Assembly (NCBI GenBank): GCA_016783965.1
Contig: JADHVO010000002.1
Coordinates: 186,001-250,000, forward strand
DNA: 64,000 nucleotides
Direction: 5' to 3'
From: Alphaproteobacteria bacterium
GTDB taxonomy: Bacteria > Pseudomonadota > Alphaproteobacteria > Micropepsales > Micropepsaceae
The notes under the pieces were generated by a model. It did not search any database. It was not told the origin of the DNA and saw nothing but the letters and a program-made list of their open reading frames with translations. The stretch's first letter is position 1. The number at the start of each line of letters is the position of its first letter. Both the position numbers and the translations under genes were made by a program. Positions 33,858 to 39,727 of the stretch are shown here, piece by piece.

Positions 33858-36809
33858 ATGTCCAAGCGCATGCTGATCGACGCATCTCACCCGGAGGAGA
33901 CGCGCGTCGTCGTTCTCGACGGTAGCAAGGTCGAGGAATTCGATTTCGAGGCCGCGTCAAAGCGGCCCCTCAAGGGCAACATCTACCTGGCCAAGGTGAC
34001 GCGCGTGGAGCCCTCGCTCCAGGCGGCGTTTGTGGAATACGGCGGCAACCGCCAGGGCTTCCTGGCCTTCGCCGAAATCCATCCCGACTACTACCAGATC
34101 CCGATCGCGGACCGTCAGGCGCTGATCGCTGAGCAGGAAGCGGAAGCCCGCCGGCGCCAGGAGGACGACATCGAGTCGTTCGAGATCACCTCGGGTCCCA
34201 AGCCCACGACGGGCGAGGACGAAGAGGAAGAAGCCGCAAGCGCCGAGGCCAGTGCGCCGGCGGAGCCCGTCGACACCATCGACTCTGCGCCTGACGCCAC
34301 TGCCCTGCCGACAGAGGATGGCGCGGAGGCCGCGCCGCCGGTCGAAGGCGCTGCCGACGACGAGGACGACGAGCACGAAGAGGTGTTCGTCCATCAGGGC
34401 GCGGCGGTCGAAGACGATCACGACCATCACCACAGTCACGACCACCACACCCATGACGGACACGTCCATCACGACGACGCGGACGACGAGATCGACACGG
34501 TTGCGGACGAGGAAGAGGAAGACGGCGTCGCCGACGAGCAGACCGTCGCGGCCTCCGCATCGCATATCCCGGCCGAGGACGGCATGCATGTCGAAACGCC
34601 GGAGCCGGAGATCACCGAGAACATCCCCGACATCCAAACCGCTTCGGAGCAGGCGCCCGAGGGCGAGCAGCACGCCGCCAATGCCAACAGCGAGCAGGCG
34701 CTGCATGCGCCGCGGCCGTCGCAGCGCTGGGTGCGCCGCCGCCACTACAAGATCCAGGAAGTCATCAAGCGCCGCCAGATCATCCTGGTGCAGGTGGTCA
34801 AGGAAGAGCGCGGCAACAAGGGTGCGGCGCTGACGACCTATCTGTCGCTGGCGGGCCGTTACTGCGTGCTGATGCCCAACACGCCGCGCGGCGGCGGCAT
34901 CTCGCGCAAGATCACCAATGCGAACGACAGGAAGCGCCTGAAGGAAGCGGCGCAGGGGCTGGAGCTGCCCGAGGGCATGGGCCTCATCATCCGCACCGCG
35001 GGCGAGAACCGGACCAAGCTCGAGATCCGGCGCGACTACGAATACCTGCTGCGCATGTGGGACACGATCCGCGAGACGACGCTGAACTCGATTGCGCCGG
35101 CGAACGTGTACGAGGAAGGCGACCTCATCAAGCGCGCCATCCGCGACCTCTACAACAAGGACGTGCAGGAGATTCAGGTCGAGGGTGAGGCGGGCTACCG
35201 CAACGCCAAGGACTTCATGCGCATGCTGATGCCGGCGCACGCCAAGAACGTGAAGCTCTACCAGGAGCCGACACCGCTGTTCCAGCGCCAGCATGTCGAG
35301 GCGCAGCTGGACCAGATGTTCCAGTCGACCGTGACGCTGAAGTCCGGCGGCTACATCGTGATCAACCAGACCGAGGCGCTGGTGTCGATCGACGTGAACT
35401 CCGGCCGCTCGACGCGCGAGCACTCGATAGAGGAGACGGCGCGCAAGACGAACCTGGAGGCGGCGGACGAGATCGGGCGGCAGCTGCGCCTGCGCGACCT
35501 TGCCGGCCTGATCGTCATAGACTTCATCGACATGGAAGACGGCCGCAACGACCGCGACGTCGAGAAGCGGCTGCGCGATGCGGTGAAGAACGACCGCGCC
35601 CGCATCCAGATCGGCAAGATCAGCCAGTTCGGCCTGCTCGAGATGAGCCGTCAGCGCCTGCGCGCGGGCGTCATCGCGGGCTCGACGGTCCCCTGCCCGC
35701 ATTGCGGCGGCCAGGGCATCGTGCGCTCTGTGGAATCCACCTCGCTGCGTGTGCTGCGCGGCCTCGAGGAAGAAGCGCAGAAGCAGCGCGCCGAAGGGCT
35801 GACGGTCAAGGTCGCGAGCGACGTCGCGATGTACACGCTGAACCAGAAGCGGCGCGAGCTGTCGCGGATCGAGAACGACTACCAGATCACCATCAGCTTC
35901 GAGCCGAAGCACGACCTGATGGCGGGCGCGTTCGAGATCGAGCGTGAAGGCCATCGCAATCCCGAAGACTTCCCGCGGCCGCAGGCGCTGCCGCCGGCAC
36001 CGCTCAGCCCCGAGGACCAGGCGGACCTGGACGTGGTGGAGGAAGAGGAGCTGGAGGCCGAGGACGAGGCCATCGAAGAGGCGATCGAAGCCGAGGAAGC
36101 GGAAGCCTCCGGCGAAGAGCGTCCGGAGCGCGAGCGCCGCGACGACGGCGAGCGTGGCGGACGGCGCGGACGCCGCCGCCGCGGCGGGCGCAACCGCAAC
36201 CGCCGCGACCGCGACCAGCGCGAGGGCGGTGCGCCGCGCGAGGCGGGCGACGGCGAGCAGCAAGCCGCTGCGCCCGCGGCTTCGGAGGACGGTGGCGACG
36301 GCGAATTCGCGACCGAGCCGGAGGATATGGCCGAAGGCGGCGAGCAATTTGCGAGCGATCATGCGCCGGAGCACGGCGGTCAGAACGGCGAGCGCGGACC
36401 GCGCCGCCGGCGGCGGCGTCGCGGGCGCCGCGGCGGCAACCGCGACCGTTTCCAGTCCAGCGAGAACCCCATGGCCGCGCCGGCCGATGGCGAGGCCATG
36501 CCGCCCGTCGACGGCGAGGCTGTGCTGCCGGTGCCCTCGACCCCGCCCGTGTCGCAAACGCCGGCATCGTTCGGCTCCGACCGCTACGGCCATGTTGACG
36601 AGATCGACACGACCCCGACCAACACACCAACCCGCAGCGTACCCAATGCGGCGTCGTCGCCCTCCTGGTCACTGAGCGATCCGCACGAGATCGACACCAC
36701 GCCGCAGGAAACGCCGAGGCCTGCGGCCGCCACCGAGACGCCGGCGTCGACCGAGCCGGCCGCACCGCCCAAGAAGGGCTGGTGGCAGCGCGCATTCAAG
36801 TCAAACTGA
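33858..36809 (+). CDS. rne: Ribonuclease E/G family endoribonuclease
   Basis: 983-aa RNase E, core of the RNA degradosome. An S1 domain (from ~37) is split by a long acidic insert (~100-290) holding a His/Asp-rich tract near 186-207 (11 His in 20 residues). The RNase E/G catalytic core follows, with SIDVNSGRST (Asp512) and VIDFIDMED (Asp555, Asp558) for metal binding and the Zn-link CPHC (Cys613, Cys616) for tetramer formation. The C-terminal third is disordered, alternating Arg-rich patches (RRGRRRRGGRNRNRRDRD) and acidic stretches, for RNA and partner binding. It ends in a 'KKGWWQRAFKSN' peptide. The His-rich stretch could bind metal. Confidence 0.96.
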   Translation: MSKRMLIDASHPEETRVVVLDGSKVEEFDFEAASKRPLKGNIYLAKVTRVEPSLQAAFVEYGGNRQGFLAFAEIHPDYYQIPIADRQALIAEQEAEARRRQEDDIESFEITSGPKPTTGEDEEEEAASAEASAPAEPVDTIDSAPDATALPTEDGAEAAPPVEGAADDEDDEHEEVFVHQGAAVEDDHDHHHSHDHHTHDGHVHHDDADDEIDTVADEEEEDGVADEQTVAASASHIPAEDGMHVETPEPEITENIPDIQTASEQAPEGEQHAANANSEQALHAPRPSQRWVRRRHYKIQEVIKRRQIILVQVVKEERGNKGAALTTYLSLAGRYCVLMPNTPRGGGISRKITNANDRKRLKEAAQGLELPEGMGLIIRTAGENRTKLEIRRDYEYLLRMWDTIRETTLNSIAPANVYEEGDLIKRAIRDLYNKDVQEIQVEGEAGYRNAKDFMRMLMPAHAKNVKLYQEPTPLFQRQHVEAQLDQMFQSTVTLKSGGYIVINQTEALVSIDVNSGRSTREHSIEETARKTNLEAADEIGRQLRLRDLAGLIVIDFIDMEDGRNDRDVEKRLRDAVKNDRARIQIGKISQFGLLEMSRQRLRAGVIAGSTVPCPHCGGQGIVRSVESTSLRVLRGLEEEAQKQRAEGLTVKVASDVAMYTLNQKRRELSRIENDYQITISFEPKHDLMAGAFEIEREGHRNPEDFPRPQALPPAPLSPEDQADLDVVEEEELEAEDEAIEEAIEAEEAEASGEERPERERRDDGERGGRRGRRRRGGRNRNRRDRDQREGGAPREAGDGEQQAAAPAASEDGGDGEFATEPEDMAEGGEQFASDHAPEHGGQNGERGPRRRRRRRGRRGGNRDRFQSSENPMAAPADGEAMPPVDGEAVLPVPSTPPVSQTPASFGSDRYGHVDEIDTTPTNTPTRSVPNAASSPSWSLSDPHEIDTTPQETPRPAAATETPASTEPAAPPKKGWWQRAFKSN

Positions 36810-36864: not shown

Positions 36865-36888
36865 GCCAGCGCTGGCCTCGACGGATGT

Positions 36889-36934
36889 GCGAATAAGTCT
36901 CATTTACTCGATCGGTCGCAACGGTATATTGCGA
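36889..36934 (+). promoter_or_regulatory. Promoter of the flavoprotein cassette with two candidate operators
   Basis: -35 TTTACT (36903-36908), 16-bp spacer, -10 TATATT (36925-36930), then GGAGA just before the GTG start at 36963. A 19-bp stretch at 36889-36907 (GCGAATAAG T CTCATTTAC) agrees with the classic Fur box at 11 of 19 positions and overlaps the -35. A separate dyad TCGCAA-N7-TTGCGA (36916-36934) overlaps the -10. Both are candidate operator sites; neither is proven. Confidence 0.45.
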
Positions 36935-36962
36935 TCGATTCTTAATTGCATTCGGAGATATC

Positions 36963-37910
36963 GTGCACTGGTTGTCGAAAGGCTTGCTTATTGCCTTCGC
37001 GCTCGCCGCGTCCTTCGCCGCGCCTGCGGAGGCAGATGAGCCGCTCCTGGGCTTCCTCTACACCACCGACCTGTTGCCCAAGGGCGGCATGGAGGTCGAG
37101 CAATGGCTCACCTGGCGGCATGCAAAGGCGCACGGGAGCTTCAATCTGCTCGAGAACCGCAGTGAGTTTTCTTATGGCGTGACAGACTCCCTGCAGCTTT
37201 CGGGCTACCTGATCTATGACTGGACGCAGGCCCACCATAACGGTCCCGACGGGAGCACGACTGCCCCAGAGCAGTTCTCGGACTTCTTTCCCGCGCCCGG
37301 CTCCTATTTCAACAAGTGGAAGTTCATTGGCGTGGCCGGCGAAGCGATCTGGCGTGTGCAGAGTCCTTACACCGATCCCGTCGGCATTGCGCTGTACGCC
37401 GAACCCACCATCGGCAACCGTTTCCAGGAACTCGAACTCAAGGCGATCTTCCAGAAGAACTTTCTCGACGATCGTCTGGTCCTGATCGGCAACATCACCT
37501 GGGCACCCGAGGTTCGCCATCTGCCGGCAAATCCCTTTGCAGCCCCCGGCAGCGTGGATGCGTCCCGAAACGTCAACGTCGAGACAGACGTCAATTTCGG
37601 CATCGGCGCGTCATACCGTTTCGCCCCCAACTGGTCGGTCGGGGTGGAGCTTCAGAACGAACGCGAGATCAACCAATGGGCGCTTTTTGCGCGAAGCCAG
37701 TGGATGGGCAATGCCTACTACACAGGCCCCACGATCCACTATGCCAACGACCACTTCTTCGCCACGCTGACCTGGTGGCAGCAGCTACCCTGGGCGAACA
37801 ACTACATGGACCCCGGCGTCGTCGTGCACGGCTATGACGGCGACGTGGACTTCGAGCGCACCCGCGTGCGCCTCAAGGTCGGCTACTATTTCGGAGGCGG
37901 CGATCAATGA
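36963..37910 (+). CDS. DUF6662-like outer envelope protein
   Basis: 315-aa exported protein, signal peptide ending about AEA (residue 24). The rest alternates aromatic and polar residues (GGMEVEQWLTWRHAK, SFNLLENRSEFSYGVTDSLQLSGYLIY) and ends in a C-terminal 'RTRVRLKVGYYFGGGDQ' strand, the pattern of an outer-membrane beta-barrel. I assign it to the DUF6662 type from memory of these motifs. GTG 36963 is the start, 4 nt after GGAGA. First gene of a four-gene operon; its stop overlaps the next ATG (ATGA). Confidence 0.72.
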   Translation: MHWLSKGLLIAFALAASFAAPAEADEPLLGFLYTTDLLPKGGMEVEQWLTWRHAKAHGSFNLLENRSEFSYGVTDSLQLSGYLIYDWTQAHHNGPDGSTTAPEQFSDFFPAPGSYFNKWKFIGVAGEAIWRVQSPYTDPVGIALYAEPTIGNRFQELELKAIFQKNFLDDRLVLIGNITWAPEVRHLPANPFAAPGSVDASRNVNVETDVNFGIGASYRFAPNWSVGVELQNEREINQWALFARSQWMGNAYYTGPTIHYANDHFFATLTWWQQLPWANNYMDPGVVVHGYDGDVDFERTRVRLKVGYYFGGGDQ

Positions 37911-38431
37911 AAGCGCGCTTCCTTCTGTTGCCCGCAGCGGCGCTGGTGATCGCTTCGCCCGTCCACGCCAAGGTTTATCTCAGCGTGGAACAGGCGCAGC
38001 AGCTGATGTTTCCGGGTGCGTCCTTCACACCGCAATTCCTCACCCTCACCGACACCCAGGTAACGGCGATCGAAAGCGCCAGCGACGCCACCGTTCTGAA
38101 CCGGGCCCTGAAGGTGTGGAAAGTTTCCACCGGCGGCTGGTTCATCGTCGACGAGGTCGTCGGCAAGCACGAATTTATCCCGATTGCTCTCGCCATCGAT
38201 GCTTCCGGCGCGGTCAAGGATATCGAGATCCTGGAATACCGCGAAGCCTATGGCGACGATGTGCGCAATGCACAATGGCGTGCGCAGTTCACCGGCAAGC
38301 GAAACGGGGCCAGGCTTACTCTGACCGACGACATCCAGAACATTTCCGGCGCCACCCTGTCCTCCAAACACGTCACCGACGGCGTCCGCCGTCTCCTTGC
38401 CACGTATGTCGTCGCCATTGCGCCCCATTGA
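37907..38431 (+). CDS. Exported FMN-binding domain protein
   Basis: 174-aa protein with a signal peptide (MKARFLLLPAAALVIASPVHA) and one FMN_bind domain (~75-170). It carries the covalent flavinylation motif: NISGATLSSKHVTDGVR, with Thr150 the expected acceptor of FMN through a phosphoester bond, as in NqrC/RnfG. Upstream, 'AIDASGAVKDIEILEYREAYG' is the usual FMN_bind strand pair. It should carry electrons outside the cytoplasm. It overlaps both neighbours, and the next gene encodes the transferase that would attach the flavin. Confidence 0.9.
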   Translation: MKARFLLLPAAALVIASPVHAKVYLSVEQAQQLMFPGASFTPQFLTLTDTQVTAIESASDATVLNRALKVWKVSTGGWFIVDEVVGKHEFIPIALAIDASGAVKDIEILEYREAYGDDVRNAQWRAQFTGKRNGARLTLTDDIQNISGATLSSKHVTDGVRRLLATYVVAIAPH

Positions 38432-39269
38432 AAAGCTCAAGCCGCTACTCGGCACCTTTGTCCGCATCCGTGTCGAAGGAGTCGCAACGTCCAAGGCGTT
38501 TGATGCCATCGACGAGGCCTTCAGCTGTATCGTCGAGATCCATCGCCTGATGAGCTTCCATGAGCCCGCAAGCGAGCTCTCGGTGCTCAATCGCGAAGCC
38601 TGGCGAGCTCCGGTCAAGGTGCATCCGCATACCCGGGCCGTGCTCGAAAAAGCGCTGGAGATCGCGCGAGCTTCAAACGGCCTGTTCGATCCGACGATCG
38701 CGCCTTGGCTCGTGCAAGGACGCCTGCTGCCCGCACCCGCGGCTGCAATGCCCGACGGCAACGCGACATGGGAAGACATCCTGCTCTCCCCCGATGGATG
38801 GGTGCGCTTTGCGAGGCCTCTGTGGGTCGACCTCGGCGGCATTGCCAAGGGCTATGCGGTGGACTGCGCTAGCGCCGTTCTTGAACGATACCGGCCGGTC
38901 CAGGGTTGCGTCGACGCCGGCGGCGATTTGCGACTGGTGGGCCCAATGCCCGGCCGCGTCCTCATCGACGCCGCTGGGCCGGGGGACATTCCGGTTCTCG
39001 AACTGCAAAATGCGGCCGTTGCCAGTTCCGGGAGCCAGACCGTAGCGGGCCGGGGCCGCGTCAGTCCGCACATCGACACGCGAACAGGCATGGGCTGCCC
39101 GACCGATCGGTTTGTCTCGGTGATCGCGCCGCGTTGCGTGGAAGCCGATGCCCTGACCAAGGTCGCAATGGCCGCAAAAGGCGATTGCGGACCAATACTC
39201 GCTCAGTATGGCGCGCAAGCCCTGCTGTTCGAGAACGCGCGGTGGCGATCCTTGGCGGAGGCTGCGTGA
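38406..39269 (+). CDS. apbE: FAD:protein FMN transferase
   Basis: 287-aa ApbE enzyme that moves FMN from FAD onto a Thr/Ser of flavoproteins. Visible motifs: PLLGTFVRIRV, the SELSVLN segment (56-62), DLGGIAKGYAVD (142-153), DAGGDLR (170-176) and the metal-binding EADALTKVA with Asp248. No signal peptide or lipobox is seen, although its presumed substrate next door is exported. ATG 38406 lies inside the preceding gene (26-nt overlap); a TTG nine bases earlier is the alternative. The TGA overlaps the next ATG. Confidence 0.92.
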   Translation: MSSPLRPIEKLKPLLGTFVRIRVEGVATSKAFDAIDEAFSCIVEIHRLMSFHEPASELSVLNREAWRAPVKVHPHTRAVLEKALEIARASNGLFDPTIAPWLVQGRLLPAPAAAMPDGNATWEDILLSPDGWVRFARPLWVDLGGIAKGYAVDCASAVLERYRPVQGCVDAGGDLRLVGPMPGRVLIDAAGPGDIPVLELQNAAVASSGSQTVAGRGRVSPHIDTRTGMGCPTDRFVSVIAPRCVEADALTKVAMAAKGDCGPILAQYGAQALLFENARWRSLAEAA

Positions 39270-39727
39270 TGCAACTTCCCGTCATGCCGATGCTCGACCC
39301 GGTGCGGTTGACGAGGACGCGCCGGCTGGCGCTTTACGGCACGGGCACAGGCCTGTGGCTCAGCGGCGCACTGTGGCTGGTATTTCACTATTTCATGGTG
39401 CAGCAGACAGCTTTCGGACCTGCGCCGCATCCGCTCGAACATTGGTGGCTGTCCATACACGGGCTGTTTGCCTTCGGAACGCTCTGGATGCTCGGCTTGC
39501 TGTGGGGTGCGCACATCGTCGGCGGTTGGCGATCGGGCCGTCGCCGCGTTACCGGGTCATTGCTTCTGCTGATGAACGCCGAACTGACCGTGACCGGCTA
39601 TCTTCTCTATTACCCGCCCAGCGACGACGCGGTTTCCACCGTCGCATTCTTGCACTGGACTGTTGGCCTCGCAGCGCCCCTGTCTTTCGTCATTCATCGA
39701 TATCTTAAGACTCAGAGGCGGCGCTAG
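39269..39727 (+). CDS. Four-helix, His-rich membrane protein, cytochrome b-like
   Basis: 152-aa integral membrane protein with four predicted spans (~21-43, 60-84, 94-115, 123-146). Histidines sit in or at the ends of the helices (His40, His64, His82, His129, His143), suitable for binding b-type haem, though no family is certain. Last gene of the cassette, overlapping apbE by 1 nt. The likely role is to pass electrons from the membrane pool to the flavinylated protein outside; this is inferred from the operon. Its stop overlaps the convergent SRPBCC gene by 4 nt. Confidence 0.78.
   Translation: MQLPVMPMLDPVRLTRTRRLALYGTGTGLWLSGALWLVFHYFMVQQTAFGPAPHPLEHWWLSIHGLFAFGTLWMLGLLWGAHIVGGWRSGRRRVTGSLLLLMNAELTVTGYLLYYPPSDDAVSTVAFLHWTVGLAAPLSFVIHRYLKTQRRR

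Follow-up and report, generated by a model that had tools for sequence, protein, structure and literature searches.

A conserved four-gene cassette of the bacterial envelope, probably for flavin electron transfer, with Fur-like boxes and a probable link to iron

Extracytosolic flavinylation is reported for about half of bacteria, and in thousands of genomes it is present with no characterised system (PMC8238504). Among the closest described arrangements is the Caulobacter DUF2271/DUF4198/ApbE operon CC_3059-3063, which is Fur-repressed with Fur binding at its promoter (PMC3751524) and is counted among the PepSY-like clusters (PMC8238504). Among membrane proteins, haem b binding has been shown for DUF4405 (PMC11334425). 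ApbE itself is typically periplasmic and membrane-anchored, and the cytosolic ApbEs given as examples in a 2025 review serve cytosolic targets (PMC12052999). Statements on these papers, here and below, refer to passages of each. Here we describe a cassette of four genes in a stretch of 64,000 nucleotides (the window) from a Micropepsaceae alphaproteobacterium (GCA_016783965.1, contig JADHVO010000002.1, positions 186,001 to 250,000), encoding in order a DUF6662 outer-membrane barrel protein (gene 1), an exported protein with a flavin mononucleotide (FMN) binding domain, FMN_bind (gene 2), an ApbE flavin transferase with no export signal (gene 3) and a four-helix membrane protein (gene 4). Flavinylation-based electron transfer is known already; this cassette is built from other parts, probably for iron acquisition, and what is new here are its Fur-like boxes, its leaderless ApbE and its occurrence on plasmids.

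The gene set is conserved as a unit in several phyla, beyond chance. A scan of species genomes with the window FMN protein gave 64 loci, which were classified by profiles grown from the four window genes, and 51 of the 64 carry all four genes in one order and on one strand. Where all four lie in one piece (45 loci), the FMN and ApbE genes overlap in 39 and the ApbE and membrane-protein genes in 37, and distance matrices correlate at 0.71-0.89, a range that common descent explains in part. An independent set of 398 genomes from the phylum had gene 4 in 14 genomes and DUF6662 in 11; every one of the 11 was among the 14, each time with the two genes about 2 kb from one another on the same contig. 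Five loci hold the FMN, ApbE and membrane-protein genes with no DUF6662 (L011, L013, L035, L039 and L063, the last beginning at a contig end that cuts it), two are cut by a contig end after the FMN gene (L064, L067), and six show the FMN protein alone within the fetched stretch (L038, L040, L041, L050, L052, L055). In L038, L040, L041 and L055 the lone FMN_bind gene sits just upstream of a frame that reads by eye as glutamate-synthase-like.

The loci are distributed over alpha-, beta- and gammaproteobacteria, Acidobacteriota and Verrucomicrobiota, and the nearest relative of the window FMN protein is a Dyella homologue at 75% identity. An initial annotation of the window, made from the DNA alone, had proposed looking for the same order across alphaproteobacteria; the conservation holds, but the spread reaches well past that class and is yet patchy within the genus, where a single-sequence search found gene 4 in 2 of 37 genomes. 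Eight plasmid records contain the FMN protein. Five were read, two of them typed conjugative, and in all four annotated records read gene 4 is entered as 'hypothetical protein'. Plasmid and scattered occurrence fits a cassette that moves as a block, of which the tree gives no proof. Two cassette copies (L015 and L016) lie about 69 kb apart on one Sphingobium contig, and in genome G010 of the window's genus (L100) a cupredoxin and a DyP peroxidase precede the FMN, ApbE and membrane-protein genes, in the place of DUF6662.

Judged from sequence patterns, Fur-like boxes and iron genes at some loci probably tie the cassette to iron. A degenerate 15-base box pattern, framed post hoc, reached p 0.05 or less in 34 of 56 upstream regions. 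Among 252 control regions, which precede other long open frames of these loci (frames not curated as genes), 8 did so. Four of the 56 regions lie upstream of another porin family described below, and many betaproteobacterial loci are close kin, which leaves fewer independent events than loci. Outside Acidobacteriota and Verrucomicrobiota the count is 30 of 36 regions, and once the pattern had been fixed, boxes at this level appeared in 6 of 14 further regions. The plain E. coli Fur consensus gives p 0.05 or less for 19 of 52 regions. The window box is the only site in the 64 kb that matches at least 13 of 14 positions, and it ends at the start of the -35 hexamer; touching the promoter in this way, it would point to iron. 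When the window's own genome was searched with the pattern of the possible second Fur-type site (Table 1), three sites including the window's were returned, too few to define a regulon, and a reversed control returned none.

The same genome has two FUR-family genes and an FTR1 permease, which adjoins a frame that reads by eye as cupredoxin-like, with a 12/14 box. A search for FeoB through its GTPase-domain family gave eight matches of mixed nature, and neither PepSY_TM (PF03929) nor DUF2271 (PF10029) had a match in the whole genome. Iron neighbours of the other loci were chosen by eye among the flank proteins and then confirmed with Pfam. They comprise FUR beside L008 and L012, with a FUR relative by similarity in L010; TonB receptors beside L012 and L017, with a plug domain in L057; FecR and a sigma factor beside L017; PepSY_TM beside L012 and L057; and DyP peroxidase beside L013 and L100. 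Upstream of DUF6662 in L006 we saw, by eye, palindromic GACT...AGTC-type repeats that are unlike the Fur pattern; another iron or iron-sulphur regulator may act in Acidobacteriota.

Table 1. Features of the cassette and its upstream region, in positions of the window
Feature	Position	Strand	Basis
DUF6662 outer-membrane barrel protein (gene 1)	36963..37910	+	GTG start; PF20367 62.1 bits vs cut-off 27
Exported FMN_bind protein (gene 2)	37907..38431	+	PF04205 40.7 bits vs cut-off 22
Sec-type signal peptide of the FMN_bind protein	37907..37969	+	by eye from sequence; homologues have hydrophobic leaders
Flavinylation motif SGATLSS, Thr150 at 38354-38356	38345..38365	+	motif read; Thr150 invariant
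ApbE flavin transferase with no export signal (gene 3)	38406..39269	+	ATG start; PF02424 142.7 bits vs cut-off 25.6
Four-helix membrane protein, candidate di-haem cytochrome b (gene 4)	39269..39727	+	His codons at 39458, 39512, 39653, 39695
Fur-like box TGCGAATAAGTCTCA	36888..36902		13/14 positions of degenerate pattern, p 0.002
Sigma-70-like promoter TTTACT-16-TATATT	36903..36930	+	9/12 matches; 0.1 expected in region shuffles
Possible second Fur-type site	36929..36950		weak; pattern framed after reading the same stretch

In the window, successive genes overlap by 4, 26 and 1 bases, gene 1 has a signal peptide as judged by eye, and gene 4 gave no Pfam family over cut-off and none from NCBIfam. 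We lean towards the view that the four genes make up a single operon, which encodes an envelope electron-transfer module and is induced by iron shortage. Ahead of the cassette, the preceding gene (33858-36809) reads by eye as ribonuclease E and contains extended acidic and arginine-rich stretches.

The SGATLSS sequence of the window FMN protein agrees with the [S/T]GA[S/T]-type motif of ApbE-flavinylated proteins, and its Gly148, Thr150 and Ser152 are invariant in all rows of an alignment that holds 44 of the 65 FMN proteins, window included; Thr150 is invariant in 20 of 20 further homologues as well. The nearest solved relative is RnfG (E 6.4e-9). The gene 3 ApbE, the sole ApbE of its genome, is predicted to attach FMN covalently to Thr150. 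Leaders of this transferase were checked at 56 cassette loci (the starts in L009 and L043 being badly parsed), by a hydrophobicity scan and by eye rather than with SignalP. The ApbE starts as called sit near the first motif of the domain, with no hydrophobic leader at any of them. Ahead of that motif hydrophobicity peaks at 1.55 over all frame stretches, and 55 FMN proteins of the same loci have hydrophobic leaders at 1.43-2.95, with no twin arginine in their first 12 residues. A single ApbE is present in 11 of 15 cassette genomes, and in ten it is the cassette's own; G422 has its sole ApbE outside the cassette, with a lipobox-like leader. Neither a leader nor a lipobox is present in any of the 14 cassette ApbEs of these genomes (the window and 13 others), and nine other ApbEs in G101, G376, G398 and G420 divide into five with a leader and four without.

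That a leaderless ApbE is a peculiarity of this cassette was weakened as an idea by similar ApbEs in DUF2271 loci, and because of these the matter may be a wider one. Seven of nine DUF2271 loci have a recognisable ApbE, taken as stop-to-stop frames that may in part be fusions, and only L145 shows a clear leader-like stretch. The ApbE frames adjoining DUF2271 in L139-L144, unlike that of L145, have no clear export leader. For the cassette, either the FMN protein is loaded before export, or ApbE leaves by an unknown route, or the FMN protein is not flavinylated. One version of the first option we put somewhat short of probable: the leaderless ApbE would flavinylate the unfolded Sec preprotein of gene 2 in the cytosol, and export would follow with FMN already fixed. 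If true, this breaks the rule that an exported ApbE loads envelope flavoproteins outside, and it explains periplasmic flavoproteins in genomes with only a leaderless ApbE. The cassette makes ApbE loading before export directly testable.

Gene 4 is best read, from its sequence and its model, as a minimal cytochrome b that may hold two haems. The model has four helices (predicted local distance difference test score, pLDDT, 93.8). All 53 aligned rows (L025, L027, L029 and L031 of the 56 loci being omitted) and 20 of 20 homologues outside the alignment share H64, H82, H129 and H143; H40 is not conserved. In the model, H64 and H82 lie near the two ends of helix 2, and H129 and H143 near the two ends of helix 4. 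Basic stretches are read from the sequence at the N-terminus, in the loop near 86-93 and at the C-terminus, and placing these inside would turn one histidine pair towards the periplasm and the other towards the cytoplasm. A di-haem protein calls for two histidine pairs near the two membrane faces, and this is the predicted arrangement. At E <=0.1, 20 of 53 gene 4 relatives match cytochrome b561 (PF01292, best 1.3e-8) and 20 of 53 match DUF4405 (PF14358, best 7.5e-4). The L021 relative scores 30.1 bits for PF01292, where the cut-off is 30.1; the window protein itself matches neither family, and none of ten relatives scanned reaches the DUF4405 cut-off of 26.7 bits. A profile search of solved structures gave nothing useful (best E 0.089). 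The reading as a candidate haem protein is based on the four invariant histidines and on these matches of the relatives.

The slot of gene 1 can be filled by either of two unrelated barrels. All 46 rows of the DUF6662 alignment match PF20367 at E 0.01 or better, and the DUF6662 model is a 12-strand barrel (pLDDT 93.2) with FapF (Z 21.7, root-mean-square deviation (rmsd) 3.3, 243 aligned) and a COG4313 channel (Z 21.7, rmsd 2.9, 234 aligned) as its nearest structures. A profile search of solved structures with gene 1 gave nothing useful (best E 0.66). In ten loci with no DUF6662 (L011, L035, L039, L101-L104, L112-L114), the gene immediately ahead of the FMN gene belongs to one other porin family; L103 has no ApbE in the fetched stretch and L104 has the membrane-protein gene on the opposite strand. 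A profile built from seven porins, including those of three of the ten loci, is matched by 7 of 8 further proteins at E 1.3e-37 or better and is not matched by the OprB-type porin of L013. Both barrel families are present in four loci (L007, L012, L014, L016), and no barrel gene was seen in L100. The porin families are similar to general channels or to channels for hydrophobic substrates. Since the barrel slot is refilled by an unrelated porin family, an outer-membrane channel seems to be part of the cassette's job. DUF6662 would be such a channel, and a role in iron is suggested for it. In genome G439 there is a second, lone DUF6662 gene (L105) with a Fur-like box upstream.

With moderate confidence, we read the cassette as an iron-controlled periplasmic reductase module in which the haem, the covalent FMN, the direction of electrons, the iron acceptor and the channel are all putative. 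Gene 4 would sit in the inner membrane, with one haem held by H64/H129 towards the periplasmic side and a second by H82/H143 towards the cytoplasmic side. Either the quinol pool or the cytosol would supply it with electrons, which it would hand to the soluble periplasmic gene 2 protein. The FMN of the latter, fixed to Thr150 by the gene 3 ApbE, would reduce an acceptor in the periplasm, ferric iron or a ferric chelate being the likeliest one. This ferric substrate would enter via the gene 1 channel (DUF6662, or the unrelated porin in other genomes), and a separate permease would import the ferrous product, the window genome having an FTR1-type one.

Several points weigh against this reading. 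We found no experiment on any member of the cassette. The degenerate box pattern was framed after the upstream regions had been read. The window site is not significant under the plain E. coli consensus (p 0.275), nor are the sites of 33 of the 52 regions. Boxes at p 0.05 are found in 0 of 4 Acidobacteriota regions and 4 of 16 Verrucomicrobiota regions. Most loci have no obvious iron gene nearby, and the recurrent neighbours, from clustering of the flanking genes, are mostly lineage-specific. For gene 4, Foldseek gave no confident match in the PDB (best E 0.33). VIA-align returned hydrogenase cytochrome b, cytochrome b6f, superoxide oxidase and FdnI at Z 10.1 to 11.4 (rmsd 3.0-4.5, 126-139 aligned), with de novo bundles at the same Z, about 11 being chance level for helical bundles, so that these matches are no more than consistent with a cytochrome b; PepSY structures were not among the matches listed, which excludes nothing. 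Finally, gene 3 has no export signal, so that loading of the gene 2 protein cannot be taken for granted.

The same electron path may instead serve an acceptor other than nutritional iron, either a periplasmic or outer-membrane redox enzyme or a small molecule (a peroxide, an oxidised thiol or an organic oxidant), with iron control merely mirroring a swap of cytochrome c for flavin under iron scarcity. The DyP peroxidases noted above, an annotated cytochrome c peroxidase beside L114, multicopper oxidases beside L113 and the general or hydrophobic substrates that the porin families suggest would all suit such an acceptor, as would the flavin/cytochrome exchange proposed in PMC8238504. We consider it possible, if unlikely: clustering of the flanking genes shows no one acceptor enzyme that returns from locus to locus, the TonB, FUR and PepSY_TM neighbours speak for iron uptake, and a unit that includes gene 4 as a candidate haem protein would not be iron-free.

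A further alternative lets the electrons leave the cell. A barrel from one of the two unrelated families almost always adjoins the FMN gene, and weak matches to MtrB_PioB occur in three DUF6662 relatives (best E 0.0066), which would suit a trans-envelope conduit like the porin-cytochrome conduits, with the flavoprotein docked to the barrel and a solid or dissolved acceptor outside. This we rank low, as improbable, because the barrel is modelled with 12 strands; a barrel of that size is probably too narrow for an FMN_bind domain, and no second redox protein for the outer face is seen in the cassette. The initial annotation had placed the electron acceptor outside the cell, which the analysis does not show; the modelled barrel, similar to small channels, would suit substrate entry better than a protein-filled conduit. 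It is also conceivable, and in our view very unlikely, that the gene 2 protein receives no covalent flavin whatever in the envelope, with the leaderless ApbE serving some other, cytosolic target and the flavin being loose or absent. An ApbE with no export signal would fit this, as would the known cytosolic ApbEs with cytosolic targets (PMC12052999), but the FMN and ApbE genes are adjacent and overlap in 39 of 45 loci, and Thr150 of the motif is invariant.

The initial annotation was confirmed in what it observed and partly supported in how it interpreted this; it made no mention of the missing signal peptide of the ApbE. Pfam scores and the sequence bear out the four overlapping genes, their families and SGATLSS with Thr150, and the co-occurrence that it proposed to look for is found in the 51 loci and in all 11 DUF6662 genomes. 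Histidines placed for haem, as it proposed, are supported by the four invariant ones, its beta-barrel partner is over the DUF6662 cut-off with a 12-strand model, and the absence of PepSY extends, for PepSY_TM proteins, to the whole genome. A compact envelope flavin electron-transfer unit is thereby supported. Its view that the layout is unlike those of iron reductases stands for the parts, which do differ, but not for the function, given the Fur-like boxes and the iron genes beside some loci.

Our literature searches found no paper naming DUF6662, none joining ApbE, outer membrane, flavinylation and porin, and no direct report on iron and the cassette. The gene set is not described in the passages of PMC8238504, PMC11334425, PMC12052999, PMC3751524 and PMC13001220, the supplements of which may list such clusters. 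For one widespread group with extracytosolic flavinylation, the cassette is a definite four-part answer, and it includes a small candidate cytochrome that the four annotated plasmid records enter as a 'hypothetical protein'.

Each of the known systems shares some parts with the cassette. RnfG and NqrC have the FMN_bind domain and the flavinylation motif, whereas gene 2 encodes, as judged by eye, a soluble exported protein in an operon of four genes that is without other Rnf/Nqr subunits, no NqrB/RnfD family search having been run. The siderophore reductases FoxB and HiuBC are likewise inner-membrane proteins with two predicted His-ligated haems, for which periplasmic ferri-siderophore reduction is proposed and a Fur-regulated operon described, but they are PepSY proteins with no flavoprotein or ApbE partner in the passages of PMC13001220. 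The DUF4405/FezC cytochromes are membrane proteins with conserved histidines, and DUF4405 genes adjoin apbE (PMC11334425); DUF4405 is described with six helices where gene 4 has four, its cut-off is not reached, the substrate is another one and the cassette has a barrel. Closest are the PepSY-like/DUF2271/DUF4198/ApbE clusters, which also combine a membrane electron carrier, an exported substrate and ApbE in one operon, are under Fur control and have iron reduction as their proposed function (PMC8238504, PMC3751524). The cassette differs from these in that its flavinylation substrate is an FMN_bind protein, its membrane component is a four-helix protein with no PepSY_TM match, and a DUF6662 barrel comes first.

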